Virus record (IMG/VR): IMGVR_UViG_3300030104_000676
Location: 1 to 21,929 of that record
Length of the DNA stretch: 21,929 nt
Source: a virus
Direction: 5' to 3' (one strand)
Part shown: one piece after another, positions 2,948 through 21,410 of the stretch
Position numbering within the stretch: position 1 is the first letter of the stretch
Layout: every line of letters begins with the position of its first letter
The notes under the pieces: generated by a model
Seen by the model: only the letters and a program-made list of their open reading frames with translations
Databases searched by the model: none
What the model was told of the DNA's origin: nothing
Position numbers and translations under genes: made by a program

Positions 2948-5893
2948 ATGCTGGTCAGCAAGACTCTTCCCAACCTAATCAATGGGGTCTCTCAACAGCC
3001 TGATGCGCTGCGGATGGACACCCAATGCACGGCGCAGGAGAACGCCTATCCCTCAGTGGTTGAAGGGTTGACGAAGAGACTTCCGACTGAGCACGTAGCA
3101 CAGACGAACTTGGCGGCTGATGCTAAGACGTTCGTTCACACCATCAACAGAGAAGCTCCAGAGCAATACACAGTTATCCTCCGCGATAAACTGATCCGCG
3201 TCTACGACAAAGACGGGGCGCTCAAGACTGTTGAGATGGGCACTGGAACAGGGACCAACAACGCCGACGTTACCTACTTAGACACTGGGAACGCCGATAC
3301 GTCATTGAAGGCGCTGACGATTGCTGATGTGACCTACATCGTCAACACCGAGAAGACCACGGCGATGACGGGGACCACAACGACTTCGGTATCCCCGCAT
3401 GAAGCGTTAATCTTCATCAACCAAGCCTTTGCTAGCTCAAGCTACACGGTAGACATCGAGCAGCCAGGGGCGAGCGGGACCATTAGTTCAACAGAAACCG
3501 CTGGTGAACCTGGCGATGCCGTCACAATCGCTACCAATATAGCGAACGACTTAAACACACTTAGCTCCCCCAGCGCACTACAGCACACATCCCCAACAAC
3601 CAGCGTTTCTAATTTTCAGACTGGAGGGGGCGGCACTGTTAATGTCCAAAACAAGTATGTAGGCCAGTCGTTCACCGCCACGTCTACGGACCCCTTAGTG
3701 TCTTTTACTTGGAAGTCAGACGTAGACCTTTCTGACAAGACGTTTTATTGGTCGCTTCACTCGGCTGATCCAAGCACTGGTGCTCCCACATCTAACTTTG
3801 ACGCTGGAGGCCAACTCACAACCGGAACGTGGCAGACTGGCCCAGTGGCCAACGCTACGCAGCAAGTCAATTTTGGAACCGTTTACCCTACGGGAAACCC
3901 GTTTGTCCCTACTGTTGGGACGCGCTACTGGATTCGGTGCTCATACGCCAATGTAGGACCAAAGCCAGTTCCCCGAGGGTGGCTACACGATACAGCGGGT
4001 TACGCCACTGGAGAGTCCTACTACAACGGGGCGGTTCAATCTGGGGACTTCTGGTTCAAGGTTAACGTGGCTGGAGCTACGTCTGGAGCAATCAATGCAG
4101 AGGCCAGTGGTCCCGTAATCTACGTGTCGTCGAACGAGCCTTTCGACATCAAAGGCACGAACAGTTACACGGACAACTACATTGATGTCTTCAAAGGCTC
4201 CGCTCAGAAGCTTTCTGATCTTCCAGTCCAAGCCAAGGACGGGATGATTATGAAGATCGCAGGGAGCGTGGACGCAGGGGAAGACGACTACTACTTGAAG
4301 TTCGTCTCCAACGCTCAGGGCATCACTGGTGGCGGCAACATTGGCCCTGGTGTTTGGGAAGAGTGCGCGGGGCCAGGGATTGAGGACGGGCTAGAGCCGG
4401 ACGCTTCAACCATGCCTCACTTGCTTATCAAGCAAGCAAACGGGACGTTTGTCTTTAAGCGTGCGGATGGTGAGAACCACACTAGCGGTTCTGATACCTA
4501 CGACTACAGCACGTTTAAGTGGGGGTCGCGACTCGCAGGAGACAAGCTCACAAACCCTGACCCCACGTTCATCGGCAGGACCATCAACAACCTGTTCTTG
4601 TTCAAGAACCGCTTTGGGATCTTGTCTGATGAGAACATCGTGATGAGTGAGGCTGGGGAGTTCTTCAACTTCTTCAGAGCCACCGCGATTGATCTACTGG
4701 ACACAGCGCCGATCGACATTGCTTCTGCAAGCAGTGAAGTGTCCATCTTACGACACGCGGTTCCACTGGCTGAAAAGCTAGTAATCCTCTCGGATGCCGG
4801 TCAGTTCATCCTTCAATCGGATACTGCCTTGTCGTCCAAGACGGTCGCGATGGCCCGTTCAACGGCCTACAACATCCTTAAAGATGCCGAGCCTAGTGCT
4901 TCGGAGAACGCAGTGTTCTTCGCGTTCAACCGTGGCTCCTTCTCTGGCGTTCGCGAATACATCCCTTCGGATGTCGAAGACAACTTTGAAGCCATCGACA
5001 TCAGCGCACAGATCCCCAAATACATCCCAGGGAAGATCACCAAGATCGTCGCGGCTAACCATGAGAACGTAGTGTTCTGCATGACTGAAGGAGACCCCGA
5101 TGCTCTGTATGTCTACAACTACTACAACGGTGATCGGCAGCGCATCCAGAGCGCATGGCACCGCTGGGAGTTTGGGACTGGAGCTAAGATCCTCAACATC
5201 GACCTGATCGACACTGACCTCTACCTGACTGTCTATAGGACTGGCGGGGTGTTCATTGAAAAGATGGCGATTGAGGTCGGCAAGACGGACTCTGGGTCTA
5301 ACTACGTCGCTCGGCTTGACCGAAGGGTATCGAACACAAGCACGGGAGTATCAGTCAACGGGAAGCTGGTCACTTTGCCTTACTCCGTCACCAGCGGAAG
5401 AACCATTGAAGTGATGACAGCAGCCGGTAAACGGCTTCCAGCCGTCCCCGATGGCGGTAGTCAGGTCACGTTTGACGTTGGCGAAGACATGACTGGTGTT
5501 TCGTTCTTTGCAGGCGAACCCTACACGATGTCATACACGTTCTCTGACCTAGTCCTTAGAGAGCAAACCAAAACAGGCGGATTGGCCGTGATGACCGATG
5601 GTCGAATCCAAGTCCGCTACGGCACGATCACGTTCGGCGAAAGCGGTTCGTTCAATGTTGCCGTCACCCCAGACTTCCGAGACACCAGCACTCACACGTT
5701 CACAGGACGAATCTTGGGCGCAGGCTCAATGAAGTTAGGGGAGGTTCCGCTGGAGTCTGGGGAGCTACGTTTCCCTGTCTTCTCTAAGGCAGACCAAGTC
5801 AACATCACTGTCACCAATGACGCTCCGCTTCCCTGTAATCTGCTATCAGCAGAATATGAGATTTCATGGAATCCACGCAGCCGTCGTATGTAG
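2948..5893 (+). CDS. Tail tubular protein B (T7 gp12-like nozzle) with inserted beta-rich module
   Basis: This is the 981-residue homologue of the nozzle protein, which forms the tail tip and carries the DNA channel. Family hallmarks are the N-terminal LINGVSQQPDALR (10-22), SVVEGLTKRLPTEHV (36-50), SDLPVQAKDGM (about 423-433), ASTMPHLLIK (about 487-496), and an NLFLFKNRFGILSDENIVMSE stretch followed by QFILQSDTALS. T7 gp12 is 794 residues, and much of the excess lies at about 215-378, a Ser/Thr/Gly-rich segment starting near VGQSFTATSTDP. It splits the core between DLNTL and GPVIYVSS and resembles two modules of the fibre-type gene at 14822-16390. Ribosome site AGAGG. The last 28 bases overlap the next gene. 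Confidence 0.95.
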   Translation: MLVSKTLPNLINGVSQQPDALRMDTQCTAQENAYPSVVEGLTKRLPTEHVAQTNLAADAKTFVHTINREAPEQYTVILRDKLIRVYDKDGALKTVEMGTGTGTNNADVTYLDTGNADTSLKALTIADVTYIVNTEKTTAMTGTTTTSVSPHEALIFINQAFASSSYTVDIEQPGASGTISSTETAGEPGDAVTIATNIANDLNTLSSPSALQHTSPTTSVSNFQTGGGGTVNVQNKYVGQSFTATSTDPLVSFTWKSDVDLSDKTFYWSLHSADPSTGAPTSNFDAGGQLTTGTWQTGPVANATQQVNFGTVYPTGNPFVPTVGTRYWIRCSYANVGPKPVPRGWLHDTAGYATGESYYNGAVQSGDFWFKVNVAGATSGAINAEASGPVIYVSSNEPFDIKGTNSYTDNYIDVFKGSAQKLSDLPVQAKDGMIMKIAGSVDAGEDDYYLKFVSNAQGITGGGNIGPGVWEECAGPGIEDGLEPDASTMPHLLIKQANGTFVFKRADGENHTSGSDTYDYSTFKWGSRLAGDKLTNPDPTFIGRTINNLFLFKNRFGILSDENIVMSEAGEFFNFFRATAIDLLDTAPIDIASASSEVSILRHAVPLAEKLVILSDAGQFILQSDTALSSKTVAMARSTAYNILKDAEPSASENAVFFAFNRGSFSGVREYIPSDVEDNFEAIDISAQIPKYIPGKITKIVAANHENVVFCMTEGDPDALYVYNYYNGDRQRIQSAWHRWEFGTGAKILNIDLIDTDLYLTVYRTGGVFIEKMAIEVGKTDSGSNYVARLDRRVSNTSTGVSVNGKLVTLPYSVTSGRTIEVMTAAGKRLPAVPDGGSQVTFDVGEDMTGVSFFAGEPYTMSYTFSDLVLREQTKTGGLAVMTDGRIQVRYGTITFGESGSFNVAVTPDFRDTSTHTFTGRILGAGSMKLGEVPLESGELRFPVFSKADQVNITVTNDAPLPCNLLSAEYEISWNPRSRRM
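3590..4081 (+). other. Inserted beta-sandwich-like module inside tail tubular protein B
   Basis: This segment codes for about residues 215-378 of the nozzle protein. It reads QSFTATSTDPLVSFTW..., SADPSTGAPTSN, PTVGTRYWIRC. The order 'QSFT - STDP - strand - G.P - G..YW' is repeated in the 522-aa protein downstream (QSFTVSSTDP, NSGVPSGTL, PTPGTTYWAVF). Such modules resemble the 'choice-of-anchor' beta-sandwich type seen in secreted bacterial proteins. A carbohydrate- or surface-binding role is inferred. Boundaries are approximate. Confidence 0.6.
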
Positions 5894-9288: not shown

Positions 9289-12200
9289 ATGGAAGAGCCA
9301 GCACAAATTGAAACGCTCGATGCTTACCTGAGAAGGCGTGAAAAGGAAAAGCAAGACCAAGGACAACTTGAGCAACTCCAGCAGCAGCAATACGAAGAAG
9401 ACCTGAGCTTCTTCGAGAGTGTTGGCGACCTCGTAGCAGCCCCCTTCCGAGGGGTGGCTGGGGCTGCTGAAGGTGTCTACGGACTTGCTGATGCAATGCT
9501 TGGGGACATCCTGCCAGATGCGCCGGAGAACTTTGGTCTTGGGGGGTCCAAAAGTCTGGCGGGAGGCATGGTTGAAAGCATCGTTCAGTTTGGAACCGGG
9601 TTTATTCCAGGCTTAGGCGTCGCATCCGCGCTTGGAAAGGCAGGTAAGATCGGCAAGGCCGTGAACGCGGGCAACAAGGCCGTCCGATCCATGCAAGCAG
9701 CGGGTCGTAACGTCCCTGCGCTACTCCTTGCGCGGGGCATGGAAGCTGGCAAGTATGCGACAGCCGGTGCCATCGCTGACTTAACGGTCTTTGATGGGCA
9801 CGAACAACGACTGTCTAACATGATCCAGATGGTGCCGGAGTTGCAGAACCCGGTCACTGAGTTCCTTGCGGCTAATGAGGAAGACTCTGAGCTTCTTGCA
9901 CGACTGAAGGCTGCACTGGAGGGCGCGGGTCTTGGCGTTGCCGTTGACGGTGTAATGATCGGACTCCGCGCCTTTCGTGCGGGTGCCAAGGCGATGCCAG
10001 ACAAGCAAGCTGCTTCGGTGGCTTTGGAGCAGTCCTTAAAAGAACAGGACGCTGCTAGGGCGGCTGCAAAAGAGACCGACGAAGCTGTTGAGGAAACCGT
10101 AGAGGCAGAAGCCAAGCAAGCAGTAGTCATCGACGACGACCTCAAGCAGATGACCAAGTCGCAACTGCGCGAGGAAGCCAAGAAACACCCCGGCGTCAAG
10201 CGCAACGGTAAGGGGGTCACTGTTCAGTCACTTCGCGAAGGGATCGCGGAAGGGCGTGCGGCTGCTAAGAAGGAGACCGGAGAAGGCGTAGAGCAAGCCG
10301 CAGAGGGCGCTGCCAAGCAAGTTGATGAGGCAGCAGAATCCGCCACCAAGCAAGCCGACGAGGCAGCAGAAGCCGCACCAGAGAAGACCGCTGACGAGAT
10401 GCGGGATGATCTCACATCCTCTGAGAACGGCGGCGGCACTGCGGAGATGGTCGAGAAGTATCTGACTAGGCGCGTCGATGACCAGTTAAAGCAGTCAGAG
10501 AAGGCCGTCGATGAGTCGAGCCTGACCCGTGAAACCGGGGAGGTTTATGACAGAGAGGTCGGCGCTCAGTTCAAGAAAGACGCTGATACTGCTTTGGAGA
10601 ACGCCAAACTGATCGACGAGGCGACTGGAACTAAGTTGACGGCGCTTGAGGTCCAGATCCGCGATGCGGGAGAAGTGACTGAGGAAACTCGGAAAGCACT
10701 TATCAAGAACCGCTACCGCATGGGGGCTATCCGCGAACTGATGGAGCAGACACGGGCGCGGCTTGAGTCTGTAATGGAAGTGGCGGTAGACAAGACTAAA
10801 CCTCCGATTGAGACTCGAAAGAAGCTCGCGGAGTTCCTGCTGATGCAGAAGAACTTTAAGACGCTGTCGAACAACATCCGCGCTACTCAGAGCGAGTTCG
10901 GTCGCAACCTTCAGTCTATCCAACGACGGACTGGTGATACCCAAGCCGGAAGACTGGCTAGGGAGATCCCTGAAGAGTCACCACTTGAGAAGTTCTCGCT
11001 GGAAAACCTTAAGCAAGAGGAAGTGGTTAACCGGATCTTGGACATTGCCGGTGGCGAAGATGCTGTCCGAAAGGAAATAGAACTGTTTGGAGCCGCCTTT
11101 GCTAACAGCACCAGCGCAGGCTTGAAGTATGCCCGTGGCAAGGCGGGTTTGATGGGTGCGATCAACGAGTGGTGGATGAACTCCATCCTGTCAGGACCAA
11201 CCACAATGATCGTCAACCTAACCGGTGGCCTAGCCACCACCCTGATGTCTCCTATTGAGAGAGCAGCGGGGTTTGCCGCCGTGGGAGATTTAGAAAAAGC
11301 CAGCGTTGAGTTTGGACGCTTGTTAGCCATTCCCGCGCACATCCGCGATTGCCTCAAGACGGCAAAGACGGCAACGATGAGTGGCGAAGGTGTCCTTGAA
11401 AAAATTGGCTCACGAGCCGATGACCAAGCTCCTGTGGGTGGATCGCAAATTGAACGGCTGATTGATGAAAGCCGTCTAACTAAAGACATCCCCGATGACA
11501 ACATGGGGCTTATCGCTACTAAGTGGATGGCCCGTAACGTCGTCAACGCCCCCGGTAAGTTTCTTGCAGGGACCGACGAGTTCTTCAAGCAGTTGAACTA
11601 CCGGACTACTGTGAAGGCTGAACTCTACAAGAAAGCCATTGACGCACGGAGGAATCTGATTGGGCCTTCACCAGATGGACCTGCAAATCTCAGCCAATTA
11701 GACGAATGGGTTGAGCAGGAGTTCAAATACATCGTGGATGACGGCCAGTTCTTGTCGTCTCAGAAGTTCGTTGAAGAAGCGGAAGCCAAGTTCGCTCGGA
11801 ACGACCCGAACCGGCCAGTGAAGATCCACGAATACGTCACTGAGAAGATGCGCCAATACAGCCCTATTGCTGAAAAGGCGCTGGCTGCGGCTCGCGATGT
11901 GACGTTTACAACGCCTCTCAGCCAAGAGCGAGGGATGATGTCGGGTCTTGGTAAAATGCTGTCTGACGCCACAGGCAAGTATCCCGCTGGTCGCCTCATC
12001 CTCCCGTTCGTTCGCACGCCTACCAACGTGATGCAATACGTGTTCGAGCGCGTCCCTGTTGTGGGTAGAGGGCAAGGGTCCGCGATCCAAAAGCGTCTTG
12101 GTCAAATGTTTGCAGATGACCGCGCAGCTTTGCAGGGTCTTGACCAAGAAGCCCAAGCAGAAGCCCTTGGTCGCCTTGCAACAGGCATGACATTATTTAC

Positions 12201-13206
12201 CGGAGCCACCGTCGCAGCAATGAACGGGGGGATTACCGGCGGAGGTCCAAAGGACTACAAACAACTCCAACTAAAGAAGCAGACTGGATGGCAACCCTAC
12301 TCCATCAAGGTTGGCGACAGCTACATCTCCTACCAGCGACTTGACCCCTTCGCATCGTTCTTTGGTCTATCCGCCGACTTGGTGGACATCATGAACAAGG
12401 GCGACGAGGAGCAGCGCAAGGACGGGGAAGACCTTGCCTTGGGAGTAATGATGGCGATTTCCAAGAACATCACATCCAAGACCTACCTCAAGGGCATCAA
12501 GGACTTTACTGGCGTCCTGTTTGACCCTGAGATGACTGTTCCTGGGTTCGCACGACGGACGATCGCGTCTTTCGCTGTCCCCAACATCTTTGCCCAAATG
12601 GCAAGGTCGGGTCCGGACCCATTGATGGACATTAAAAACATGACCGACGCGCTGAAGGCGCGAATCCCTGGTCTGTCCGACGAAGTCCCTCACCGCCGCA
12701 ACATGCTGGGCGAGGAGATCATGGACAACGGCACATACGCTGCCGTGGACCTCATCAACCCGTTCTCTTACTCCACCGTCAGTGACGACAAGATGATGCA
12801 GGAGTTCGACCAGATCGGTCACGGGTTTGCCGCGCCGAAGTCATTGAAAAACGGTGTGGAGCTTCGCAGTTACTTTAACAACCGAGACCAGTCTGCTTAC
12901 GACAGGTGGCAAGAGTTGTCGGCGAAGACGCGCCTTAACGGCAGGACTCTGCGGCAAGAACTGAACAAGCTCATGTCGTCTTCTAAATACAAGCAGCTTC
13001 CTTACGAGCCAGTAGATGGTTTGGATAGAAGCCCAAGAGCGCGACTGATTCAGACCATTCTGAACAAGTATAGATCGAGAGCCTACTCCGAAATGCTTGA
13101 CGAGTTCCCCGAGGTAAACAAGCGAGCCAAGATCGTAGACATGATTAAGAGCCGTCGCCGTGTCGGCCAAGACTACAAAGACCTTCTAGCACTCATTGAG
13201 GACTAA
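9289..13206 (+). CDS. Internal virion protein D (T7 gp16-like ejection protein), no transglycosylase domain seen
   Basis: At 1305 residues it matches T7 gp16 (1318). T7 gp16 starts with a lytic transglycosylase domain; here the N-terminus is instead a charged segment (LRRREKEKQDQGQLEQLQQQQYEED) followed by hydrophobic Gly/Ala-rich helices (about 45-250, such as VGDLVAAPFRGVAGAAEGVYGL and AALEGAGLGVAVDGVMIGL). A SAP-like helix-extension-helix segment (MTKSQLREEAKKHPGVKRNGKGVTVQSLREGI, about 288-319) comes next. An 11-residue Ala/Glu repeat (about 343-364) follows. The C-terminal half carries stretches typical of gp16 relatives (NSILSGPTTMIVNLTGG near 630, LILPFVRTPTNVMQYVFERVPVVGR near 904). 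AGGAGG lies 11 bases upstream of the ATG. Confidence 0.87.
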   Translation: MEEPAQIETLDAYLRRREKEKQDQGQLEQLQQQQYEEDLSFFESVGDLVAAPFRGVAGAAEGVYGLADAMLGDILPDAPENFGLGGSKSLAGGMVESIVQFGTGFIPGLGVASALGKAGKIGKAVNAGNKAVRSMQAAGRNVPALLLARGMEAGKYATAGAIADLTVFDGHEQRLSNMIQMVPELQNPVTEFLAANEEDSELLARLKAALEGAGLGVAVDGVMIGLRAFRAGAKAMPDKQAASVALEQSLKEQDAARAAAKETDEAVEETVEAEAKQAVVIDDDLKQMTKSQLREEAKKHPGVKRNGKGVTVQSLREGIAEGRAAAKKETGEGVEQAAEGAAKQVDEAAESATKQADEAAEAAPEKTADEMRDDLTSSENGGGTAEMVEKYLTRRVDDQLKQSEKAVDESSLTRETGEVYDREVGAQFKKDADTALENAKLIDEATGTKLTALEVQIRDAGEVTEETRKALIKNRYRMGAIRELMEQTRARLESVMEVAVDKTKPPIETRKKLAEFLLMQKNFKTLSNNIRATQSEFGRNLQSIQRRTGDTQAGRLAREIPEESPLEKFSLENLKQEEVVNRILDIAGGEDAVRKEIELFGAAFANSTSAGLKYARGKAGLMGAINEWWMNSILSGPTTMIVNLTGGLATTLMSPIERAAGFAAVGDLEKASVEFGRLLAIPAHIRDCLKTAKTATMSGEGVLEKIGSRADDQAPVGGSQIERLIDESRLTKDIPDDNMGLIATKWMARNVVNAPGKFLAGTDEFFKQLNYRTTVKAELYKKAIDARRNLIGPSPDGPANLSQLDEWVEQEFKYIVDDGQFLSSQKFVEEAEAKFARNDPNRPVKIHEYVTEKMRQYSPIAEKALAAARDVTFTTPLSQERGMMSGLGKMLSDATGKYPAGRLILPFVRTPTNVMQYVFERVPVVGRGQGSAIQKRLGQMFADDRAALQGLDQEAQAEALGRLATGMTLFTGATVAAMNGGITGGGPKDYKQLQLKKQTGWQPYSIKVGDSYISYQRLDPFASFFGLSADLVDIMNKGDEEQRKDGEDLALGVMMAISKNITSKTYLKGIKDFTGVLFDPEMTVPGFARRTIASFAVPNIFAQMARSGPDPLMDIKNMTDALKARIPGLSDEVPHRRNMLGEEIMDNGTYAAVDLINPFSYSTVSDDKMMQEFDQIGHGFAAPKSLKNGVELRSYFNNRDQSAYDRWQELSAKTRLNGRTLRQELNKLMSSSKYKQLPYEPVDGLDRSPRARLIQTILNKYRSRAYSEMLDEFPEVNKRAKIVDMIKSRRRVGQDYKDLLALIED
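10315..10380 (+). repeat. Two tandem 33-bp repeats in the gp16-like gene
   Basis: Units 10315-10347 and 10348-10380 both begin AAGCAAG and contain GAGGCAGCAGAA. They encode KQVDEAAESAT and KQADEAAEAAP. The 11-residue amphipathic period fits a helical or right-handed coiled-coil spacer between the SAP-like segment and the following helical domain. Confidence 0.75.
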
Positions 13207-13209
13207 CCC

Positions 13210-14811
13210 ATGCCCAGCAACTCATCACCATTTAGCTACGTTAGATACGAGTCATCGGGTTCGGCTGGTCCCTACTCGATCAACTTCGACTACCTGTCTT
13301 CCAGCCACCTTTCGGTCAGTTTGAACGGTGTCACTCAGGCTACTTCGGCCTACACAATAGACACCAACGCCAACACGGTGACATTCAACTCTGCGCCCGC
13401 CGCAGGTGTAGTCATTGTGATTGAGCGTTCGACCCCAAAGGGCAAAAGCGCATTCCAAACGGATGTTGCAGACTTCTCGGACGGGTCCGTATTGACTGCG
13501 GAAGACCTAGATCAAGCGGCTCTTGGCCTTCTGTATGTAGCTCAAGAAGCGGACGACTCCGGCAATGCTAACAGTCTGAATAAAGACTTGCAGGACGAGA
13601 AGTGGGATGCGTCAAACACGACTATCAAGAACGTCCCGCTTCCTGCCTCTTCGTTAGATGCAGTGAACAAGGACTACGTTGATGGGCTGTCGCTCTACAA
13701 CTCTCCGACACCGTTGCAGGTCTACACGTTCACGGGCAACACTACGGACACAGCGTTTGTTATGAGTCCTGCGCCTCAGTCTGCGGACCCTAAAGCGTTT
13801 ATCGTAGACGTTGGTGGTGTTGCACAACGCCCAACGACGGACTACACAATCAGTGGATCAACGATCACGTTCGGGACCGCCCCACCTGCCGCTACCATCA
13901 CAGTCCGAAACATCGGGGTAGCTCGTGACACCCTTGCACAGCCCATCGTTGCAGATGGAACGGCTAACAACAGCCTGACGGTTAAGGCAATCAACAGTCA
14001 GACCAGTAAGCTACAAGAGTGGCAGAACACCAGCGGGGTCGCTCAAGCTTCCATCGCCACCGATGGAGACGCGGTGTTCAAAGACGTTGCGGCTACTGGC
14101 AACATCAGCGGAGTAGGCGTCACTGCGTCCGGCAACATCAGTGGGGTAGGTGTCACTGCGTCCGGCGACATCAGCGGAGTTAATGTCACTGCGTCTGGAA
14201 CGGTGACTTCCGCAGGGGCGCTTACTGCTAGCGGACTCCTGAATGTTGTTGGTGCCCTTCAGTTCAACGGGCAAACAGGCATCAAGATCCACGGAATCAC
14301 TAAGTTCGATTTGGTTGACGCCAATGGTCAAGGGACGACCAATTCCGCGCCCTCACCCTCAGCTACGAACTCATCTAGTGTATCCGATGCCAACTACGTC
14401 CTATCAGGCATTAGAGCAACAATCACACCTCAGTCTTCTAGCTCTAAGTTTCTTGTTCTTGGCTCCATCAACGGGGCGGCGGGTGTTACTGGCGCACTAG
14501 TCGCCGACCAAAAGAGAGCCGGGGTCTATGGGACTATTATCTTGAACAATACGCCTTCAAACGGGCGAGGAAACATCCACAACGGGACTCGAATTGGAGC
14601 GCAATATAAGTGGCTTCAATATGTCACAGGTCCAAACTTTGTTCACGGATCTATACCAATCCAAACAATCTACGAACCGGCAAGCACAAACCAGTTCACA
14701 TTAGATGTAGCGTTTCAAAGCTACTACGAAAGTAGTGCAAGCATTCTTACCAGTGAGTCGCGTGCTATTCTTGGCAACCGATTCGTTGTTGCAATTGAGT
14801 TCAGCAGCTAA
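13210..14811 (+). CDS. Tail fibre protein with T7 gp17-type N-terminus
   Basis: The 533-residue protein starts with the T7 tail-fibre attachment domain (about 1-150): FSYVRYESSGSAGPYSINFDYLSSSHLSVSLNG, then VIVIERSTPKGKSAFQTDVADFSDGSVLTAEDLDQAALGLLYVAQE. This is the classic pattern of the domain that docks the trimeric fibre to the tail. A second beta domain lies at about 150-245. Three 11-residue repeats (NISGVGVTASG-like, 298-330) suggest a shaft. The C-terminal part (about 350-533, with ITPQSSSSKFLVLGSINGA) resembles the distal domain of many environmental phage fibres and is the likely receptor-binding end. GAGGA before the start overlaps the gp16-like stop region. Confidence 0.93.
   Translation: MPSNSSPFSYVRYESSGSAGPYSINFDYLSSSHLSVSLNGVTQATSAYTIDTNANTVTFNSAPAAGVVIVIERSTPKGKSAFQTDVADFSDGSVLTAEDLDQAALGLLYVAQEADDSGNANSLNKDLQDEKWDASNTTIKNVPLPASSLDAVNKDYVDGLSLYNSPTPLQVYTFTGNTTDTAFVMSPAPQSADPKAFIVDVGGVAQRPTTDYTISGSTITFGTAPPAATITVRNIGVARDTLAQPIVADGTANNSLTVKAINSQTSKLQEWQNTSGVAQASIATDGDAVFKDVAATGNISGVGVTASGNISGVGVTASGDISGVNVTASGTVTSAGALTASGLLNVVGALQFNGQTGIKIHGITKFDLVDANGQGTTNSAPSPSATNSSSVSDANYVLSGIRATITPQSSSSKFLVLGSINGAAGVTGALVADQKRAGVYGTIILNNTPSNGRGNIHNGTRIGAQYKWLQYVTGPNFVHGSIPIQTIYEPASTNQFTLDVAFQSYYESSASILTSESRAILGNRFVVAIEFSS
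14101..14199 (+). repeat. Three tandem 33-bp repeats in the tail fibre shaft
   Basis: Units 14101-14133, 14134-14166 and 14167-14199 encode NISGVGVTASG, NISGVGVTASG and DISGVNVTASG. A degenerate fourth (TVTSAGALTASG) follows. Copies differ mainly at synonymous sites. Gly/Val/Thr spacing fits a beta-helical or collagen-like trimeric shaft. Confidence 0.85.
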
Positions 14812-14821
14812 GGACTAAACC

Positions 14822-16390
14822 ATGACTCAAAAGATTGATACTTCGATGTTGGAGGATGTTGCCTCCAAGACTCCTTCATCGGCTCAAGACGCTGACGTTG
14901 GCAAGGTTGTCCAGCTAAACGCTTCAGGACTTGTTCCTGCGGAATATCTAGGAGCAACTGGTTTATCGGCAGTGGACGGTCGCCAGCTAGCTTTAGAAAT
15001 TGCGGACCTTAAAGGCGCTACTCTTAACTTTGGTGCAGGCCAAGCTGATGCTTTTGATGCGGACACTATTGGAGCCACAAGCACCAATGAGTTCTACGAT
15101 GCGACGAACGACTGGTATGAAGACGGCTCTAACTCAGACGAAGGAACATTTGGTCTGACTGGAGGGACGAATCATGCAGCTTGGGGCGACGGTAACAGCA
15201 ACGGTAAGCATGTTGCACACCTAGACACAGTTGCAACCACAGGTAACCTAAGCAGCGTTAAGATCAACGTAGACAGCGTGTCTACATCGTTTAACGCGCA
15301 GTGCTCCGTTTACAGCAACAACAGCGGTAGCCCTGGGACCATTGTAGGCGGTGCAAGTGGCACTGTATCCATCTCTGAGACAGGTGATAAGACGTTCACT
15401 TGGGCTTCTGGCGGCCCTTACCTGAACTCGGGGAATACTTACTGGTTCATCTTTAGCGACGTTAGTGGCGGCTCTGGAAACGCGACGATTGACTACGCGG
15501 CCTACGACTCTACGCACTCCACAGGGAACCACGACACAATTACGTCGATCACGTCAAACACTAGCGCGACAGCCCGTGTTCAATTTGCGATTGCGGAGCA
15601 CCCTTCGGAAGTCGAAACAATCGCGACCTACACCGGCCACAACAGAGGCGATGCAGGTATGTATGTAGAAGTCCCAACGACTTCCACTACAGCGGCACAG
15701 AGCTTCACGGTTTCGTCTACAGATCCAATCTCAAAAGTCCGCCTGTGGACTACAGCTTCAGGTCCAAACATCTCGATGAGGATTGAGACGGACAACAGCG
15801 GCGTTCCAAGCGGGACTTTAGTTGCCTCTGGTGCTGAAAAGGCTAGCACTGCGGCACAAGCAGGTGGCCACCCTCATATGGCGTTAACCACCCCGTTCTA
15901 CCCCACTCCTGGGACAACGTATTGGGCTGTCTTCCAAAGCACTGATGACACTGCGCTACGCATCGGCTTAACGAAGCCAAACGCAGCATCTTCAACCTAC
16001 GCTAACGGAAATGCTTACTGGACTGGTGGAGGGACTAGCGGCGACCTTGACATGTTGGTGTATCAACTGACGCAACCACGCAACATGACGTTGGTAAGCG
16101 GTGCAATGACTGCCGATACTGCACCTACTACTGGACGGATTAGCGTTCAAGCTGAGTTCGTTGAGTCTGCTACGGTCAACACACATATGACCGCAGAAAT
16201 CAGCCGAGATGGTGGCACTACTTGGTCACTGGTGACACTGACCGCTGGAGCTACTAACGCCAACTTCACCATGTATTCCGGTGAAGCCGCGCTCTCCTCA
16301 CAACCCTCTGGAACTTCCATGAAGTATCGGATTAAGACGCTTCAAAACAAGCGAATCCGCGTCAGTGGGGCTGTTCTGAGGTGGAGCTAA
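14822..16390 (+). CDS. Second fibre-type virion protein with two choice-of-anchor-like modules
   Basis: The 522-residue protein has no T7 counterpart in this position. Residues 23-45 (AQDADVGKVVQLNASGLVPAEYL) match a short linker common in phage fibre proteins. Two beta-rich modules follow. One is at about 135-262 (SVKINVD..., SNNSGSPGTIV, LNSGNTYWFIF). The other is at about 292-418 (QSFTVSSTDP, DNSGVPSGTL, PTPGTTYWAVF). The C-terminus (about 425-522, ISRDGGTTWSLVTL..., PSGTSMKYRIKTLQNKRIRVSGAVLRW) is a beta domain seen at ends of environmental phage fibres. It follows the gp17-like fibre by 10 bases (AAGGA ribosome site). It could be a second receptor-binding protein attached to the fibre or tail. 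The exact partner is unknown. Confidence 0.75.
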   Translation: MTQKIDTSMLEDVASKTPSSAQDADVGKVVQLNASGLVPAEYLGATGLSAVDGRQLALEIADLKGATLNFGAGQADAFDADTIGATSTNEFYDATNDWYEDGSNSDEGTFGLTGGTNHAAWGDGNSNGKHVAHLDTVATTGNLSSVKINVDSVSTSFNAQCSVYSNNSGSPGTIVGGASGTVSISETGDKTFTWASGGPYLNSGNTYWFIFSDVSGGSGNATIDYAAYDSTHSTGNHDTITSITSNTSATARVQFAIAEHPSEVETIATYTGHNRGDAGMYVEVPTTSTTAAQSFTVSSTDPISKVRLWTTASGPNISMRIETDNSGVPSGTLVASGAEKASTAAQAGGHPHMALTTPFYPTPGTTYWAVFQSTDDTALRIGLTKPNAASSTYANGNAYWTGGGTSGDLDMLVYQLTQPRNMTLVSGAMTADTAPTTGRISVQAEFVESATVNTHMTAEISRDGGTTWSLVTLTAGATNANFTMYSGEAALSSQPSGTSMKYRIKTLQNKRIRVSGAVLRWS

Positions 16391-16392
16391 AG

Positions 16393-16599
16393 ATGAACGA
16401 CGAACTTATGTTGGCCTTGGGCCGTCTTGAAGGAAAAGTAGACTCTCTAATAAGCCGCCAAAGTGTGGTGGACGAAGAGATGCGTAAGTTTGACTCACGG
16501 CTTCGCTCTGTTGAGCAATCAAGAAGCTGGCTAGTGGGAGCAGCCGCCTCTGTAGGGGCGCTTGTTTCCGCTGGCTTTCAATGGATCACAAAGGGCTAA
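16393..16599 (+). CDS. XhlA-like membrane protein, holin-associated candidate
   Basis: A short coiled-coil with C-terminal membrane anchor: ALGRLEGKVDSLISRQ, then FDSRLRSVEQSRSWLVGAAASVGALVSAGFQWITKG. This pattern (heptad helix, W, then one hydrophobic helix) is that of the hemolysin XhlA family, which cooperates with holins in some phages. The start is taken as ATG at 16393 (68 aa) because GGAG lies at 16383-16386, six bases before it. A GTG at 16381 would add four residues but has no ribosome site of its own. T7 gene 17.5 (holin) occupies a similar place after the fibre gene, which supports a lysis role by position only. Confidence 0.6.
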   Translation: MNDELMLALGRLEGKVDSLISRQSVVDEEMRKFDSRLRSVEQSRSWLVGAAASVGALVSAGFQWITKG

Positions 16600-16601
16600 C
16601 C

Positions 16602-16946
16602 ATGCGAACCGTAGATTTAATGGACCAGACCGTCACTGGAGCAACGACGGGATCGACGTTTACCTTTGAAATGCCCAAGGGAAACCGTGGTGTTGTAAAC
16701 TTCTTTCTGTCCAGCATTAACGACACCAACGGAAACGTGACGGCCCAACTAGAAGGGCGTCTATCTGACCGTATGGAGTTCGTCGTGGTGGATATTGATT
16801 CATCTGGGACTGATGTGGTCACGCTAACAAGCACTAACCACACGGTTACAGCCCAAGATATTCAGATTTACCCTCAGATGAGGGCCAAGGTAAACGCTGT
16901 TAACACCGCAACTAGCGCGGTTGTTGACATCAAACTTTCTAATTAG
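16602..16946 (+). CDS. Small hypothetical virion-type protein, paralogue A
   Basis: A 114-residue, mostly beta-predicted protein. The ATG at 16602 is chosen over one at 16581 because AAAGGG ends six bases upstream and because the paralogue starts at the equivalent point. It is clearly related to the gene at 17147. Shared blocks are GSTF.(F/L)EMPKGNRG(V/I)V, EGRLS..M(E/D)FV, (D)IQ(I/L)YP(Q/E)MRA(K/R), and a final T.T.A.V(D/V)...L. Function is not recognised. A small structural or decoration protein is a reasonable guess from size, beta content and its place among virion genes. Confidence 0.7.
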   Translation: MRTVDLMDQTVTGATTGSTFTFEMPKGNRGVVNFFLSSINDTNGNVTAQLEGRLSDRMEFVVVDIDSSGTDVVTLTSTNHTVTAQDIQIYPQMRAKVNAVNTATSAVVDIKLSN

Positions 16947-16958
16947 GAGGACAGTTAT

Positions 16959-17147
16959 ATGCCTAAAGGTGGTGGAGGTGACAGTGGCGGTGGTGACTCT
17001 GGTGGTCCGGTAGTCAAGCAGCGCACTCGTTCAGTTAAAGGTCGTCGCGTAGCCCGGAAAACGAAGCGTCGCGCTAAACCTAGTGGCGGGATGTCCGCTA
17101 TGAAAATTGGAGAGAAGAAGAAGAAGCAGCAGGAGGGTAATTACTAA
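16959..17147 (+). CDS. Small basic glycine-rich protein, unknown
   Basis: A 62-residue protein with two halves. An N-terminal Gly/Ser/Asp-rich stretch (GGGGDSGGGDSGG, 4-16) is followed by a very basic segment (RSVKGRRVARKTKRRAKPSGG, about 24-44) and a lysine cluster (KIGEKKKKQQ). It has one of the best ribosome sites of the window (AGGAGG, 16945-16950, eight bases upstream). Its stop overlaps the next ATG as TAATG. The composition suggests nucleic-acid binding or a disordered virion peptide. No known family was recognised. Confidence 0.65.
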   Translation: MPKGGGGDSGGGDSGGPVVKQRTRSVKGRRVARKTKRRAKPSGGMSAMKIGEKKKKQQEGNY

Positions 17148-17467
17148 TGATTGTCAAAACTTTGCTCGACCTTACGGGCCAAACTGCCGTTGCAACCGGG
17201 TCTACGTTTGACCTTGAAATGCCGAAGGGAAACCGTGGCATTGTCCAAGTCAAGGGGACTAACTACACCATGACCGCCTTAACGGTAACGATTGAAGGAC
17301 GACTTAGCCCTAGCATGGACTTTGTCGCAATTTCTAACGGCGCAATATCGCAAAACGGGGAGGGATCAACTGCGGTTGAAGACATCCAGCTTTATCCTGA
17401 GATGCGAGCAAGAATCAGCACTTTTACAGGGACAACAGCCGACGTTGTCGTCCAACTAGGGTGTTAA
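17147..17467 (+). CDS. Small hypothetical virion-type protein, paralogue B
   Basis: A 106-residue relative of the protein encoded at 16602-16946. The anchors are MPKGNRGIVQV (28-38), IEGRLSPSMDFV, EDIQLYPEMRARI and the hydrophobic end DVVVQLGC. It lacks several residues present in paralogue A in the loop after MPKGNRG and near the middle. The two genes flank the small basic gene, so the block looks like a tandem duplication with an intervening gene. The stop is followed almost immediately by the small terminase gene. Function is unknown. Confidence 0.7.
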   Translation: MIVKTLLDLTGQTAVATGSTFDLEMPKGNRGIVQVKGTNYTMTALTVTIEGRLSPSMDFVAISNGAISQNGEGSTAVEDIQLYPEMRARISTFTGTTADVVVQLGC

Positions 17468-17468
17468 G

Positions 17469-17687
17469 ATGAACGAGAACGGACTCAAGGAGCTTCATAA
17501 CGTCATTGCGATGGAACTCCTTGAACGACTGAAGAGTGGTGACGCAACTTCTGCGGACCTCAACGTGGCTCGTCAGTTCCTTAAAGACAACGGAATTGAC
17601 GCTTCCACAGGCCAATCAGAGCCTTTGTTAAATCTGTCCAAAGTGCTCCCTTTTGACCCTTCGGAGCCTGTTGAAGACGTAGGCTAA
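17469..17687 (+). CDS. Terminase small subunit (T7 gp18-like DNA maturase A)
   Basis: A 72-residue helical protein. LKELHNVIAMELLERLKSGDATSADLNVARQFLKDNGID (5-43) is the typical core of small terminase subunits in this phage group (L..LH..LA.ELL.RI..G.ATAADLNVARQFLKDNGI). It would recognise concatemeric DNA and hand it to the large subunit. T7 gp18 is 89 aa. Position between the fibre block and the large terminase also agrees with T7. AGGG eight bases upstream gives a modest ribosome site, with coupling to the preceding stop likely. Confidence 0.85.
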   Translation: MNENGLKELHNVIAMELLERLKSGDATSADLNVARQFLKDNGIDASTGQSEPLLNLSKVLPFDPSEPVEDVG

Positions 17688-17694
17688 CAATGCG

Positions 17695-18189
17695 ATGGCT
17701 ACCCCTCCTGACGAATACGAAGACACCTCAAACAAGCAGACCTTTATCGTGAAAGACGAACGCGCAGCTCTGAAAATGAAGCGGGAGGAAGCGCGAGCAG
17801 CCCGTGAAAAATACAAGGCTGTTGTTGCGCGTGAACGAGAAGAGGCCAACGCTAAACGTGCGATTCAGCGGGAAGAGATCAAGCTAGAACTTGCGAAGCT
17901 ACGGCTCAACCAAAGCGCGTCGGAGAAAGCGCGGACTAACTTGGCTCTTACTACTCCGGCGATCCTAGTTGTCTTGATCGGTGGCTTTATCGGGATGCTA
18001 GGGACAGGAGCCATCCCTGACGAGTCGGTGTCTGTTGCCTCAGCCCTGTTAACTCTTTTGGTCACAGGGCTTATGGCTAATCTCAGAAGTATTATTTCCG
18101 AGGGTAGCCCTACAGAAGAAAACGGTAACGGCCATGAGCCGAAGCCAAAGCTCCCTGCTAAGAAGCCAGAACCACCTAAGAAACCATGA
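17695..18189 (+). CDS. Coiled-coil membrane protein in the lysis-gene position
   Basis: A 164-residue protein with a long charged coiled coil (about 18-82, DERAALKMKREEARAAREKY...). Two membrane helices follow (about 83-103, TPAILVVLIGGFIGMLG, and 112-130), then a Pro/Lys tail (EPKPKLPAKKPEPPKKP). T7 has its inner-membrane spanin (18.5) between the terminase genes, but a spanin has one N-terminal helix followed by a periplasmic coiled coil. Here the order is reversed and there are two helices, so holin-like or another membrane function is at least as likely. The next gene starts within its stop (ATGA) and encodes a lipoprotein, which suggests the two act together. Confidence 0.6.
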   Translation: MATPPDEYEDTSNKQTFIVKDERAALKMKREEARAAREKYKAVVAREREEANAKRAIQREEIKLELAKLRLNQSASEKARTNLALTTPAILVVLIGGFIGMLGTGAIPDESVSVASALLTLLVTGLMANLRSIISEGSPTEENGNGHEPKPKLPAKKPEPPKKP

Positions 18190-18410
18190 AGAAGTTGATC
18201 TCTGTAGCAGCCTTAGTGCTGTTCTCTTCGTGCGAAGGCATCTCTGTTGCCGACGCATACGTAGCGGCTGACCAAGCCACCTACGACGTGATTGCCCCTC
18301 AATACCGCGCCTACGTGGAAGCTGACGAGAACCTTGATGCTCCGTCTAAGGCTTCTCGAATGCGCTTGGTAGAAACCTGGAAGATGCGCCTGGAGGCGAA
18401 CAAGAAGTGA
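18186..18410 (+). CDS. Small lipoprotein, possible outer-membrane spanin subunit
   Basis: A 74-residue protein with a lipoprotein-type signal: MKK, hydrophobic LISVAALVLF, then SSC with Cys16 as the lipid attachment site (the -3 position is Phe, tolerated but not ideal). The mature part is about 59 residues, charged and helical (DENLDAPSKASRMRLVETWKMRLEANKK). T7 places Rz1-like lipoprotein gene 18.7 here. Unlike Rz1 it is not proline-rich and not embedded in the upstream gene. It overlaps the preceding gene by 4 bases (ATGA) and the following by GTGA. The spanin role is inference from position and lipobox. Confidence 0.55.
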   Translation: MKKLISVAALVLFSSCEGISVADAYVAADQATYDVIAPQYRAYVEADENLDAPSKASRMRLVETWKMRLEANKK

Positions 18411-18688
18411 GTGACATGACCCCTGACGTTGCAGCCTTAGCAGACAAGCTCAAGGCTTCTGTTACTGATCCCACCAAGCAAGCGATGCTTGAAGCAATGG
18501 CTGCTGATGCCAGTCGAGTTGCCATGTTGGCGATGACTGATCCTGCTGCGGCTGAAGCTGAAGTTGCGATCATCAAGGCGACCATGGCCAACATTGGTCA
18601 AGCTGAAGCTGCTAACGCCGTTAAAGCCGTCACTGATTGGGTGGCTGACACGGTTGGTCGAGTGATGAGCAAGGCTCTTCCGGTCTGA
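18407..18688 (+). CDS. Small Ala-rich helical protein, unknown
   Basis: A 93-residue protein, almost all helix and rich in Ala/Met/Asp (LEAMAADASRVAMLAMTDPAAAEAEVAIIKATMANIGQAEAANAVKAV). There is no signal peptide or clear membrane segment. The start GTG at 18407 overlaps the lipoprotein stop as GTGA and has GGAGG ten bases upstream. An in-frame ATG at 18416 is the alternative and would be 19 bases from that site. Its stop overlaps the large terminase ATG as TGATG, so it is translated in the packaging/lysis operon. No family recognised. Confidence 0.65.
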   Translation: MSDMTPDVAALADKLKASVTDPTKQAMLEAMAADASRVAMLAMTDPAAAEAEVAIIKATMANIGQAEAANAVKAVTDWVADTVGRVMSKALPV

Positions 18689-20352
18689 TGACGGACCCAC
18701 GGCTCAAGGATTTCCGAAACTTCCTGTTCTTATGCTGGGAGCACCTCGGACTTCCTGAGCCGACCCCGGTCCAATACGACATCGCGGAATACATCCAGAA
18801 CGGTCCAAAGCGCCGTTGCGTGATGGCGTTTCGTGGTGTCGGTAAAAGCTGGATCACTTCAGCTTTCGTTGTCCACCAACTGCTACTAGATCCCACCAAG
18901 AACATTCTGGTGGTGTCTGCATCCAAGCAGCGAGCGGATGACTTCTCTACGTTCACGCTGCGGCTGATTGATGAGATGCCCTTGCTGCAACATCTCAAGC
19001 CGCATGAGAACCAAAGAAACTCAAAGATCGCCTTTGACGTAGGGCCAGCCCCGGCTGCCCATGCTCCGTCCGTGACTTCCAAGGGGCTGACCTCCCAAAT
19101 TACTGGTAGTCGAGCAGACATCATCATCGCAGACGATGCAGAGTCCTTGACCAACTCTGCTACTCAGATGATGCGCGACAAGATGTCGGAGCAAGTCAAG
19201 GAGTTCGATGCTGTGCTGAAGCCTGGGGGTGCAATTCTCTACTTGGGAACCCCCCAGACTGAAGCCAGTATCTACAACCAGTTACCAGAGCGGGGCTATG
19301 ACATCCGCATCTGGCCAGCAAGGATGCCCACGGAAAAGCAGCGACTCGGCTACGGCAAACGCCTAGCCCCGATGATCGTTGATATGGAGCTAGAGGAGGG
19401 CGACCCAGTCGATCCAAAGCGGTTCAACACATATGACCTGCTAGAACGAGAAGCCAGCTACGGAAAGTCTGGGTTCGCTCTCCAATTCATGCTGGATACG
19501 TCACTGTCTGACGTAGACCGATACCCACTCAAGCTCTCAGACCTCGTAATTATGAGGCTCGACCGAGAGCAAGCCCCAGAGAAGATCCTGTGGGCTGGGT
19601 CTCCAGAGTATGCCTACAAAGACCTCCCCTGCGTAGGGATGGCTGGAGACCGCTACTACATGCCCATGGGCGTCTCTGGTGAGTTTATGAACTACCAGGG
19701 GTCAGTCCTAGCCATTGACCCGTCAGGTCGAGGTAAGGATGAGACGGCCTACGCAGTGGTGAAGATGTTGAACTCACAACTCTTCGTCACCGCAGCCGGT
19801 GGACTACCTGGGGGATACGACGATGACACCTTGAAGTCTCTGGCGATGATTGCCAAGGACCACAACGTCAATGAAGTCATCATCGAGTCCAACTTCGGTG
19901 ACGGGATGTTCACCGCGCTGTTCCAACCAGTGTTGGCAAAGATCCACAAGGTCACCATCAACGAAGTCCGTCACTCCGTCCAAAAGGAGAAGCGGATCTT
20001 GGATGTCCTTGAGCCAGTGATGAACCGTCACAAGCTGATCGTGGATGAGTCGGTGATCCAGTCGGACTACAACTCGACCCAACACCTACCAGCAGACAAA
20101 TCTCTCAAGTATCAGTTGTTCTACCAGATGACACGACTGACCAGAGACAGAGGATCACTGGCCCATGATGACCGTCTGGATGTCCTGGCTATCGCGGTCA
20201 ACTACTGGACTGAACAGATGTCCAGAGATGTTGACGAAGCCGTGGACTACCACAAGAACGAGAAACTGAGACGGGATCTGGAGAGCTTTACAGAACACGT
20301 CCTAGGACACCAAGGAGACCGGGGGGACTCATGGATAAATACGATGAACTGA
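18688..20352 (+). CDS. Terminase large subunit (T7 gp19-like packaging motor)
   Basis: At 554 residues it is close to T7 gp19 (586). ATPase motifs are visible: Walker A FRGVGKSW (48-55), Walker B DIIIADDAE (144-152), and coupling motif LYLGTPQ (184-190). The nuclease domain has the RNase H-like acidic residues in LAIDPSGRGKDETAYAVV (Asp344, Glu352), VIIESNFGDGM (Glu400) and AHDDRLDVLAIA (Asp493, Asp494 and Asp497). It pumps DNA into the procapsid and cuts the concatemer. The ATG overlaps the upstream stop (TGATG). The gene's last 22 bases overlap a 55-aa gene in another frame. Confidence 0.98.
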   Translation: MTDPRLKDFRNFLFLCWEHLGLPEPTPVQYDIAEYIQNGPKRRCVMAFRGVGKSWITSAFVVHQLLLDPTKNILVVSASKQRADDFSTFTLRLIDEMPLLQHLKPHENQRNSKIAFDVGPAPAAHAPSVTSKGLTSQITGSRADIIIADDAESLTNSATQMMRDKMSEQVKEFDAVLKPGGAILYLGTPQTEASIYNQLPERGYDIRIWPARMPTEKQRLGYGKRLAPMIVDMELEEGDPVDPKRFNTYDLLEREASYGKSGFALQFMLDTSLSDVDRYPLKLSDLVIMRLDREQAPEKILWAGSPEYAYKDLPCVGMAGDRYYMPMGVSGEFMNYQGSVLAIDPSGRGKDETAYAVVKMLNSQLFVTAAGGLPGGYDDDTLKSLAMIAKDHNVNEVIIESNFGDGMFTALFQPVLAKIHKVTINEVRHSVQKEKRILDVLEPVMNRHKLIVDESVIQSDYNSTQHLPADKSLKYQLFYQMTRLTRDRGSLAHDDRLDVLAIAVNYWTEQMSRDVDEAVDYHKNEKLRRDLESFTEHVLGHQGDRGDSWINTMN

Positions 20353-20498
20353 AGAGAGCGACAGACCGACTGGTAGACACCTACGATGACTACCTGAACC
20401 AAGAAGTAGTCCCTGAACTACTGACTCAACGGTTGATGGAAGTCACCAAGCTGGTGGACCACCTAGTAGGCCCTGAGAAGGCTGAAGATCCTCTCTAA
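20331..20498 (+). CDS. Short gene overlapping the end of the large terminase gene
   Basis: A 55-residue frame starting inside the terminase gene (22-base overlap). The purine-rich AAGGAGACCGGGGGG stretch directly upstream supplies a ribosome site. The product is acidic and helical: MDKYDELKRATDRLVDTYDDYLNQEVVPELLTQRLMEVTKLVDHLVGPEKAEDPL. Regular leucine/valine spacing suggests a small helical bundle. T7 has short gene 19.5 after the large terminase, so position is comparable, but no sequence relation is claimed. Confidence 0.65.
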   Translation: MDKYDELKRATDRLVDTYDDYLNQEVVPELLTQRLMEVTKLVDHLVGPEKAEDPL

Positions 20499-20501
20499 GC
20501 C

Positions 20502-20546
20502 ACGATCTTCACTGGAAGGTATCAACCCACCAGTAAAGAAGATCGT
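20502..20546 (+). terminator. Strong hairpin just after the terminase operon
   Basis: A perfect 9-bp outer stem (20502-20510 with 20538-20546) continues as a 5-bp stem (20511-20515 with 20530-20534, three A bulged) and a 3-bp tip (20518-20520 with 20525-20527, loop ATCA). It begins four bases after the last stop codon. No T run follows, so an RNase III processing or mRNA-end-protecting role is as likely as termination. Confidence 0.6.
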
Positions 20547-20593
20547 AGATCCTAGAGACCACTACAGCCCTCAGAGATAGGAACGACTCTTTG

Positions 20594-20609
20594 AGAAGCC
20601 CAGGCTTCT
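20594..20609 (+). terminator. Short hairpin, possible terminator
   Basis: A 6-bp stem, AGAAGC with GCTTCT, closes on CCAG. It is followed by TTGGGG, not a T tract. It lies between the hairpin at 20502-20546 and the large stem at 20646-20757. Termination is only a possibility. Confidence 0.35.
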
Positions 20610-20645
20610 TGGGGTCGAAGAGCACTCAGGACTCAGGAAAATACC

Positions 20646-20757
20646 TTTCCAGATTCTAGTAGCGGAGATCTCCCTTACCTTTAGATCCAGACTTTTGCAT
20701 CCTTGGCTGGGTTGTGGGGGGTAAGGGGGGTCTTCTGCTACACTAGGATCTAGGAAA
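20646..20757 (+). ncRNA. Large imperfect stem-loop, candidate structured RNA
   Basis: Positions 20646-20679 pair with 20720-20757 in about 34 base pairs, four of them G-U, interrupted only by single-sided bulges at 20736, 20741-20742 and 20752. The 40-nt loop contains a further stem (20684-20690 with 20707-20713). The G-U pairs mean RNA pairing is better than DNA palindromy. It lies in a gene-free stretch between the packaging genes and the promoter-like boxes. Whether it is a separate transcript, an RNase III site, a terminator or a packaging signal cannot be decided from one sequence. Confidence 0.6.
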
Positions 20758-20883: not shown

Positions 20884-21111
20884 ATGGCCAAACCTAGAGA
20901 CTACAAGAAGGAATACAGGGACTACCACAGCAAGCCCAAGGCTAGAAGAATTAACAACCTAGTCCGTAAAGCACGTAGGAAGGTTGGTCTTAAAGAAGGA
21001 GATCCAAGAGAAGTGGATCACAAAAAAGCCCTGTCCAAAGGAGGCTCCAACGGCCTGGACAACCTCCGTATCGTCTCTCGAAAGACGAATCGGAAGAAGG
21101 GCAATAAGTGA
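20884..21111 (+). CDS. Small HNH endonuclease
   Basis: A 75-residue, very basic protein. The C-terminal half carries the HNH core: VDHKKALSKGGSNGLDNLRIVSRKTNRKKG (44-73), with Asp45-His46 as the first motif half, Asn60-Leu61 in the middle and Asn69 as the last position. The basic N-terminus (KPRDYKKEYRDYHSKPKARRINNLVRKARRK) would contact DNA. Small HNH proteins next to terminase genes occur widely in phages and in several systems assist packaging; free-standing homing is the other option. GAGAG lies a few bases before the ATG. The stop overlaps the next ATG as TGATG. Confidence 0.88.
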   Translation: MAKPRDYKKEYRDYHSKPKARRINNLVRKARRKVGLKEGDPREVDHKKALSKGGSNGLDNLRIVSRKTNRKKGNK

Positions 21112-21410
21112 TGAAACTGGTCCTGGTCCACTGGATCGACATCATCGGTGATGACCACAATCCTTGGAGCAGTCTGGAACAGGCCAAGGAGATGAAGCCT
21201 GAACCTATAGCCACCATCGGGAAGGTGGTGGAAGACAATGACCAACACATGGTCGTAGCCTCAAGCTGGAACGAAAACGGTGGACTGCTAGGGAACCTGA
21301 ACTGTATCCCGAAGGGAGTGGTTCAGAGCGTTGTAGAAGTAGAGCTTGAGGATGTTGAGGATGTTGAGGATGTTGAGGATGTTGAAGAAGGCTGGGGAAG
21401 TTTTGGCTGA
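21111..21410 (+). CDS. Small conserved-type phage protein with acidic repeat tail
   Basis: A 99-residue protein. The N-terminal 78 residues (KLVLVHWIDIIGDDHNPWSSLEQAKEMKPEPIATIGKVVEDNDQHMVVASSWN..., then IPKGVVQSVVEVE) have the shape of a small phage protein family with pattern V.W.D.....W....E......P..I.T.G.V..D, IPKG; no function is known to me. The tail is (EDV)x4 then EEGWGSFG, encoded by four exact 9-bp repeats. The ATG at 21111 is used, overlapping the HNH stop (TGATG); a GTG one codon earlier is also in frame. It is the last gene before the repeat-rich terminal region. Confidence 0.75.
   Translation: MKLVLVHWIDIIGDDHNPWSSLEQAKEMKPEPIATIGKVVEDNDQHMVVASSWNENGGLLGNLNCIPKGVVQSVVEVELEDVEDVEDVEDVEEGWGSFG
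21348..21383 (+). repeat. Four exact 9-bp tandem repeats (GAGGATGTT)
   Basis: Units start at 21348, 21357, 21366 and 21375 and are identical in sequence, encoding EDV each time. Identity without synonymous drift points to recent slippage expansion. Copy number changes keep the frame and lengthen the acidic tail. Confidence 0.9.

Follow-up and report, generated by a model that had tools for sequence, protein, structure and literature searches.

Nozzles of T7-type tails are usually seen as passive conduits and gates, and host recognition is left to the fibres. Two nozzles of this type with solved structures are T7 gp12 (794 aa) and gp23 of the cyanophage P-SCSP1u (806 aa). The nozzle tip has been described as a beta-barrel in which one alpha-helix replaces a strand; it is the most distal part and points toward the outer membrane (PMC6702177). 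In phage SU10, four Ig-like domains are located between propeller blades 2 and 3 of the nozzle. They touch adjacent nozzles and lend stability to the tail, and on straightening they form an extension of 28 nm; sequence similarity between the SU10 and T7 nozzles is undetectable (PMC9509320). In Vibrio phage OWB, the tail tubular proteins, including TTPB, bind the host receptor Vp0980. TTPB is thus a T7-type tail tubular B acting as a host-binding protein, and binding is not attributed to any extra domain in the parts of that report consulted here (PMC7241545). Mutations in tail tubular B also arose during adaptation to a new host (PMC7599783).

The window analysed here, i.e. the whole stretch of DNA and at the same time a whole virus record of 21,929 bases, holds the late genes of an uncultured T7-like podovirus. 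They code for the scaffold, the major capsid protein, both tail tubular proteins (A and B), a gp13-like protein and internal virion proteins, then for a fibre of the gp17 type, another fibre-like protein, small proteins and the large terminase. The T7-type gene order is kept, from scaffold and capsid through tail tubular A and B to the internal proteins and the fibre. The gp17-type fibre (13210-14811) has three near-identical tandem repeats (GNISGVGVTAS / GDISGVNVTAS) ahead of its C-terminal part. Two small proteins (16581-16946 and 17147-17467) with a common 'STFTFEMPKGNRGVV / STFDLEMPKGNRGIV' motif look like paralogues; a Gly/Lys/Arg-rich ORF separates them, and Pfam gave no match. Further downstream (20884-21410), a small HNH endonuclease ORF (Pfam HNH, 1.5e-5) is followed by an ORF ending in an acidic EDVEDVEDVEDVEE repeat. 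In the related contig L095 (related contigs carry L numbers throughout), the large internal virion protein (16266-20732, 1488 aa) is longer by a stretch that contains HEVWHALERS, a metalloprotease-like HExxH motif, again with no Pfam match. This stretch was not seen in the window counterpart (9289-13206, 1305 aa). The features of the nozzle gene are as follows.

2948..5893, plus strand: tail nozzle protein (tail tubular protein B, T7 gp12 homologue), 981 aa, assigned by Pfam PF25675, PHROG 457 and phmmer against the PDB
3560..4084, plus strand: inserted module in the nozzle-tip domain, residues ~205-379, delimited by a gap at window residues 204|377 in every insert-less relative, equivalent to T7 gp12 T206 to S209
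3665..4060, plus strand: conserved core of the nozzle module, residues ~240-371, from an alignment of five insert-bearing nozzles; predicted all-beta

The nozzle ORF matches Pfam PF25675 (Phage_nozzle) with E=5e-219 and 729.9 bits (cut-off 27), the match being split in two stretches, and PHROG 457 (tail protein, 1e-208) covers residues 1-981. In phmmer searches of the PDB, its core matched the solved nozzles of P-SCSP1u (1.4e-130) and T7 (gp12, 3.8e-90). These alignments come in two pieces with a segment omitted, the P-SCSP1u pieces being residues 2-207 and 399-981. A preliminary description of this DNA had proposed that an insertion interrupts a T7 gp12-like core, and the two-piece alignments with intact flanks bear this out. 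The T7 and P-SCSP1u nozzles resemble the window nozzle in family, gene order and core; however, they have a short turn at the insertion loop and lack the ~172-residue tip module. Alignment of ~70 nozzles placed 172 extra residues between window positions 204 and 377, which corresponds to ~92% of the 187-residue excess over T7 gp12. The insert thus explains much of the extra length (981 versus 794), as had been suggested. The segment first pointed out, residues 215-378 (nt 3590-4081), lies inside 3560..4084.

Once T7 gp12 was included in the alignment, the insertion site fell at T206|S209 in T7 numbering, directly after the stretch 'DAQWLAEELAKQMRT'. Taken with the published description of the tip, this alignment puts the module within the nozzle-tip domain, and its assignment to the tail tip agrees with the earlier proposal. 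Among six other nozzles compared, those of four cultured phages and L002 (56% identical) have no counterpart of residues ~205-379, and the L001 nozzle (69% identical) has its own divergent segment at this place. No direct or inverted repeats of at least 14 nt, as a trace of a mobile element, were found around the insert, and its GC content equals that of the flanks (0.536 each).

Homologous inserts were found in nine other nozzles (L001, L008, L009, L010, L011, L012, L025, L095 and L096). Including the window, seven inserts are distinct; one sequence is common to L009, L010 and L012, and the L095 and L096 inserts do not differ in the core. In a tree of the nozzle core, built without the insert region, all ten carriers of the insert group together in a single clade (FastTree support of 100; a single change, with 0 of 500 shuffles as low). 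The sister clade consists of 18 metagenomic nozzles, all of them insert-less. Because the ten carriers fall in one clade, a single gain in the clade ancestor is most likely. That the segment is an ordinary part of the gp12 core can be ruled out, as it is absent from T7, P-SCSP1u, CRP-114, LUZ100, HTVC011P, RHEph21 and 18 of 18 sister-clade nozzles. Alignment of tail tubular B homologues thus finds close relatives, and the gp12 family generally, devoid of it. A tblastn search of 50,697 phage records with the nozzle segment returned nothing at E<=1. Degenerate-pattern scans, of limited sensitivity, located the module among viral sequences only in nozzles of this clade and, as a search for a bacterial source, found no relative in genome contigs.

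The preliminary description had also related the insert to a fibre-type protein of the same phage. The fibre genes comprise the following features.

13210..14811, plus strand: tail fibre with a T7 gp17-type N-terminus (Pfam PF03906 Phage_T7_tail, 6.4e-25), separate from the module-bearing protein
14822..16390, plus strand: fibre-like protein, 522 aa, with conserved N-terminus (1-104), module 1, module 2 and conserved C-terminal domain (420-522), from alignment with the L008 and L011 homologues
15134..15595, plus strand: fibre module 1, residues ~105-258, missing in the L011 homologue and present in that of L008; matched by NF041539 (choice_anch_R)
15596..16078, plus strand: fibre module 2, residues ~259-419, missing in the L008 and L011 homologues; matched by the nozzle-insert HMM, hhalign and NF041539

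The insert is clearly related to fibre module 2. The Smith-Waterman score was 85 compared to 38+-7 for shuffled sequences (0 of 1000 shuffles reach it), a profile HMM built from seven nozzle inserts scored module 2 with 53 bits (0/2000 shuffles), and hhalign gave 98.1% (E=1.1e-13), at an identity of ~26%. For module 1, the Smith-Waterman score was not significant (269 of 1000 shuffles were equal or better) and hhalign gave 27.6%. The nozzle-insert HMM scored the window module 1 with 15.5 bits (0/2000 shuffles) and that of L008 with 7.5 bits, a value reached by 5 of 2000 shuffles. The order QSFT..STDP, G.P turn and G(T/N).YW, initially noted for the insert and both fibre segments, is upheld for module 2. 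Module 1 does not have QSFT..STDP; it reads 'DTVATTGNL' at this place and keeps only a GSP turn and GNTYW.

A common family is indicated by the choice-of-anchor R model NF041539. It matches the fibre-like protein with 33.8 bits, above the curated cut-off of 30, and the best stretch (140-248) is module 1. The L008 module 1 is matched as well, and only these two modules exceed the cut-off. Fibre module 2 remains slightly below it (27.7 bits), the nozzle inserts of L008 (19.5 bits) and L025 (16.4 bits) are also below, and the window insert has no match to this model. Profile searches thus place fibre module 1 in the family and leave the window insert outside. By these scores the nozzle insert is a relative of choice-of-anchor R rather than one of its filed members, and its link to module 1 is transitive, via NF041539. 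The phrase 'choice-of-anchor R' was not found in a literature search. In a Pfam scan of six nozzle inserts no family, CBM included, appeared at E<=10, and the fibre-like protein gave BNR alone (0.043). Sequence searches of the PDB with the insert profile and a joint profile found no relatives.

The modules of the fibre-like protein vary between related phages. The L011 homologue (203 aa) has no module, that of L008 (365 aa) has module 1, and the window protein (522 aa) has both, with both termini kept in all three. On this comparison the modules behave as cassettes, with 0, 1 or 2 per phage. The nozzle insert is present in all of the window, L008, L011 and L095 phages; at the sequence level, modules of the fibre-like protein come and go and the nozzle insert stays. 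The C-terminal domain of the fibre-like protein is common to Rhizobium phage proteins. The L095 homologue (22152-22901) keeps the N-terminal ~51 residues (69% identical) before a different payload, and the N-terminus therefore looks like an attachment tag.

It had been proposed that the phage copied one module into both nozzle and fibre. When fibre module 2 was used as query, the L025 nozzle came first (27.8 bits), followed by L008 and L001, and the window nozzle was outside the best 20 matches. A recent copy within this genome was rejected on the clade inheritance of the insert, the patchy occurrence of module 2 and this better L025 match. Since the insert is clade-wide, module 2 is absent in L008 and L011, identity is only ~26% and module 2 prefers the L025 nozzle, copying is unlikely and separate acquisition from a shared pool would fit better.

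Structure prediction for the insert alone (six rows) yielded an all-beta model with mean pLDDT 56 and pTM 0.57, the strands reaching pLDDT 70-80. Its best match was a phi812 baseplate domain (Z 7.2), followed by PHR, CBM and lectin-type domains, none of them above chance level, and Foldseek returned nothing at E<=0.001 among PDB and viral structures. The model of the fibre modules had a mean pLDDT of 58 (strands 70-85). Here, module 2 matched the phi812 baseplate domain with Z 12.9 (rmsd 2.8 over 137), the Cwp84 lectin-like domain (Z 11.2), the Douge central fibre (10.4) and an esterase CBM (8.2). Module 1 matched CBM6, CBM35 and CBM29 (Z 6-8), and the best Foldseek E-value of this model, 8e-4, was for the same phi812 protein. 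Several domains of the Douge baseplate and central fibre have carbohydrate-binding-like folds and, expressed singly, attached to the host surface (PMC13033339); the stretch matched here may or may not be one of these. The two models were compared through their match lists and are not fully independent, because the fibre alignment contained nozzle inserts. The lists overlap (phi812, 8h2i_bG, PHR, Cwp84 and the FjoAcXE CBM), which supports one fold for insert and fibre modules, predicted to be a beta sandwich of lectin/CBM-like shape, the nozzle model being of low confidence. The lists thus give no sign of differing folds, and the choice-of-anchor-like fold first suggested for the insert is consistent with its predicted beta sandwich.

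Position, predicted fold and evolution together make it probable that the nozzle insert is a host-surface-binding domain on the tail tip. The additional host-surface contacts that had been proposed are plausible on the same grounds. On this view, the ancestor of a small T7-like podovirus clade would have gained an accessory beta-sandwich domain a single time, in the loop that follows the alpha-helix in the barrel of the nozzle tip. At the cell-facing end of the tail, six copies would be displayed, presumably surface-exposed. The fibres would touch the host first; each nozzle-tip module would then bind a host-surface molecule, probably a glycan, and the modules would keep the ejection end on the envelope, either ahead of channel opening or during it. 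Domains of this broad family also serve as a cassette in the fibre-like protein, with 0, 1 or 2 copies per phage.

The insert changes fast. Within the insert clade, mean pairwise identity is 38% in the insert, 34% in the tip before it, 53% in the tip after it, 72% in the propeller and 84% in the N-terminal platform. Between window and L001, the insert is 37% identical compared to 84% for the propeller, and pN reaches 0.47 for the insert, compared to 0.10 for residues 446-740. The synonymous sites of the insert are saturated, so that dN/dS could not be computed as a test of positive selection on it. Fourteen core positions are invariant in the five aligned insert-bearing nozzles (Q240, F242, W255, W268, F319, P321, T325, Y327, G344, W345, Y352, G355, D367 and F370), and nozzles sharing these positions are ~60-70% identical overall. 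Fast change around a kept core would suit a surface facing a partner that itself changes, but the whole region is fast. The tip varies just as much in the sister clade, which has no insert (30% identity before the site, 55% after). The speed is therefore a property of the region and does not prove recognition by the insert.

The main rival to host binding, by analogy with the Ig-like domains of the SU10 nozzle, is a bracing or extending role, in which the module makes the nozzle tip longer or firmer, or contributes to keeping the distal gate shut, and does not bind the host. We consider this unlikely, though it is the most serious alternative. According to its published description, SU10 gp17 likewise has extra beta-sandwich domains at the distal end of a propeller-based podovirus nozzle, and offers a mechanical precedent (PMC9509320); it differs in having four Ig-like domains, in their location at blades 2 and 3 and in their mechanical role. 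Retention of the module by every clade member also agrees with a structural function. However, bracing should preserve contact surfaces, and the insert is far less conserved than the propeller (38% and 72%, respectively). Moreover, the relatives of the insert are cassettes in a fibre-like protein, and its fold matches are lectin/CBM-type and phage baseplate or central-fibre domains. Still less probable is a neutral passenger, tolerated in a permissive loop under relaxed constraint. Tip loops do take unrelated inserts elsewhere (L031 in the same loop, L063 and L072 in a nearby one), and the region evolves fast with or without the insert; yet the reading frame is intact, the length is kept at ~156-181 residues, at least 14 core positions, mostly aromatic or glycine, are invariant, and pN/pS of the insert is below 1. 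Least probable is a docking of the nozzle insert onto fibre module 2 that would hold the fibre-like protein on the nozzle: the same domain family does occur in both proteins of one phage, but L008 and L011 have the insert and no fibre module 2 (L011 has neither fibre module), and the nozzle module therefore needs no such partner.

Host binding by the insert, our preferred reading, can be set beside a wider pattern in related nozzles. L031 has 119 aa in the loop of the window insert, and L063 and L072 have an insert in an earlier tip loop. Further inserts are found in L062 and L068 (~124 aa at 98|99), L049 and L050 (~310 aa at 513|518) and L053 (546 aa at 833|836). The profile of the window insert matched none of the large inserts of L031, L049, L050, L053, L062, L063, L068 and L072, and a Pfam scan of some of these other inserts identified no family. 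Two nozzles are split into two ORFs, L054 (4111-7608 and 7611-8456) and L063 (6507-10193 and 10200-10790), with the break at about Pfam position 590-605 and extra sequence at the ORF junction; in L054 this sequence consists of DUF285 leucine-rich-type repeats (5.5e-15). The second ORF starts at an overlapping TAATG stop/start in L054, and AGGAG precedes the second ATG in L063. The core tree does not place these two nozzles as sisters. Inserts at several loops among related contigs indicate, by alignment, that the nozzle accepts domains there. Modules of this kind did not turn up for T7-type nozzles in a literature search, which leaves their absence from the literature unproven.

A broader and more tentative reading, for which the odds are somewhat against us, is that the nozzle may be a second receptor-binding protein. 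Its tip loops and other parts would take interchangeable recognition domains from the fibre pool, and recognition would be split between fibres and nozzle. The main evidence found so far for a receptor-binding role of the nozzle is the work on Vibrio phage OWB. A clade with a fibre-type module at the nozzle tip, and relatives with unrelated domains in their loops, make this role directly testable. The insertion site, in addition, is mapped and naturally permissive, and it lies in a protein of solved structure.
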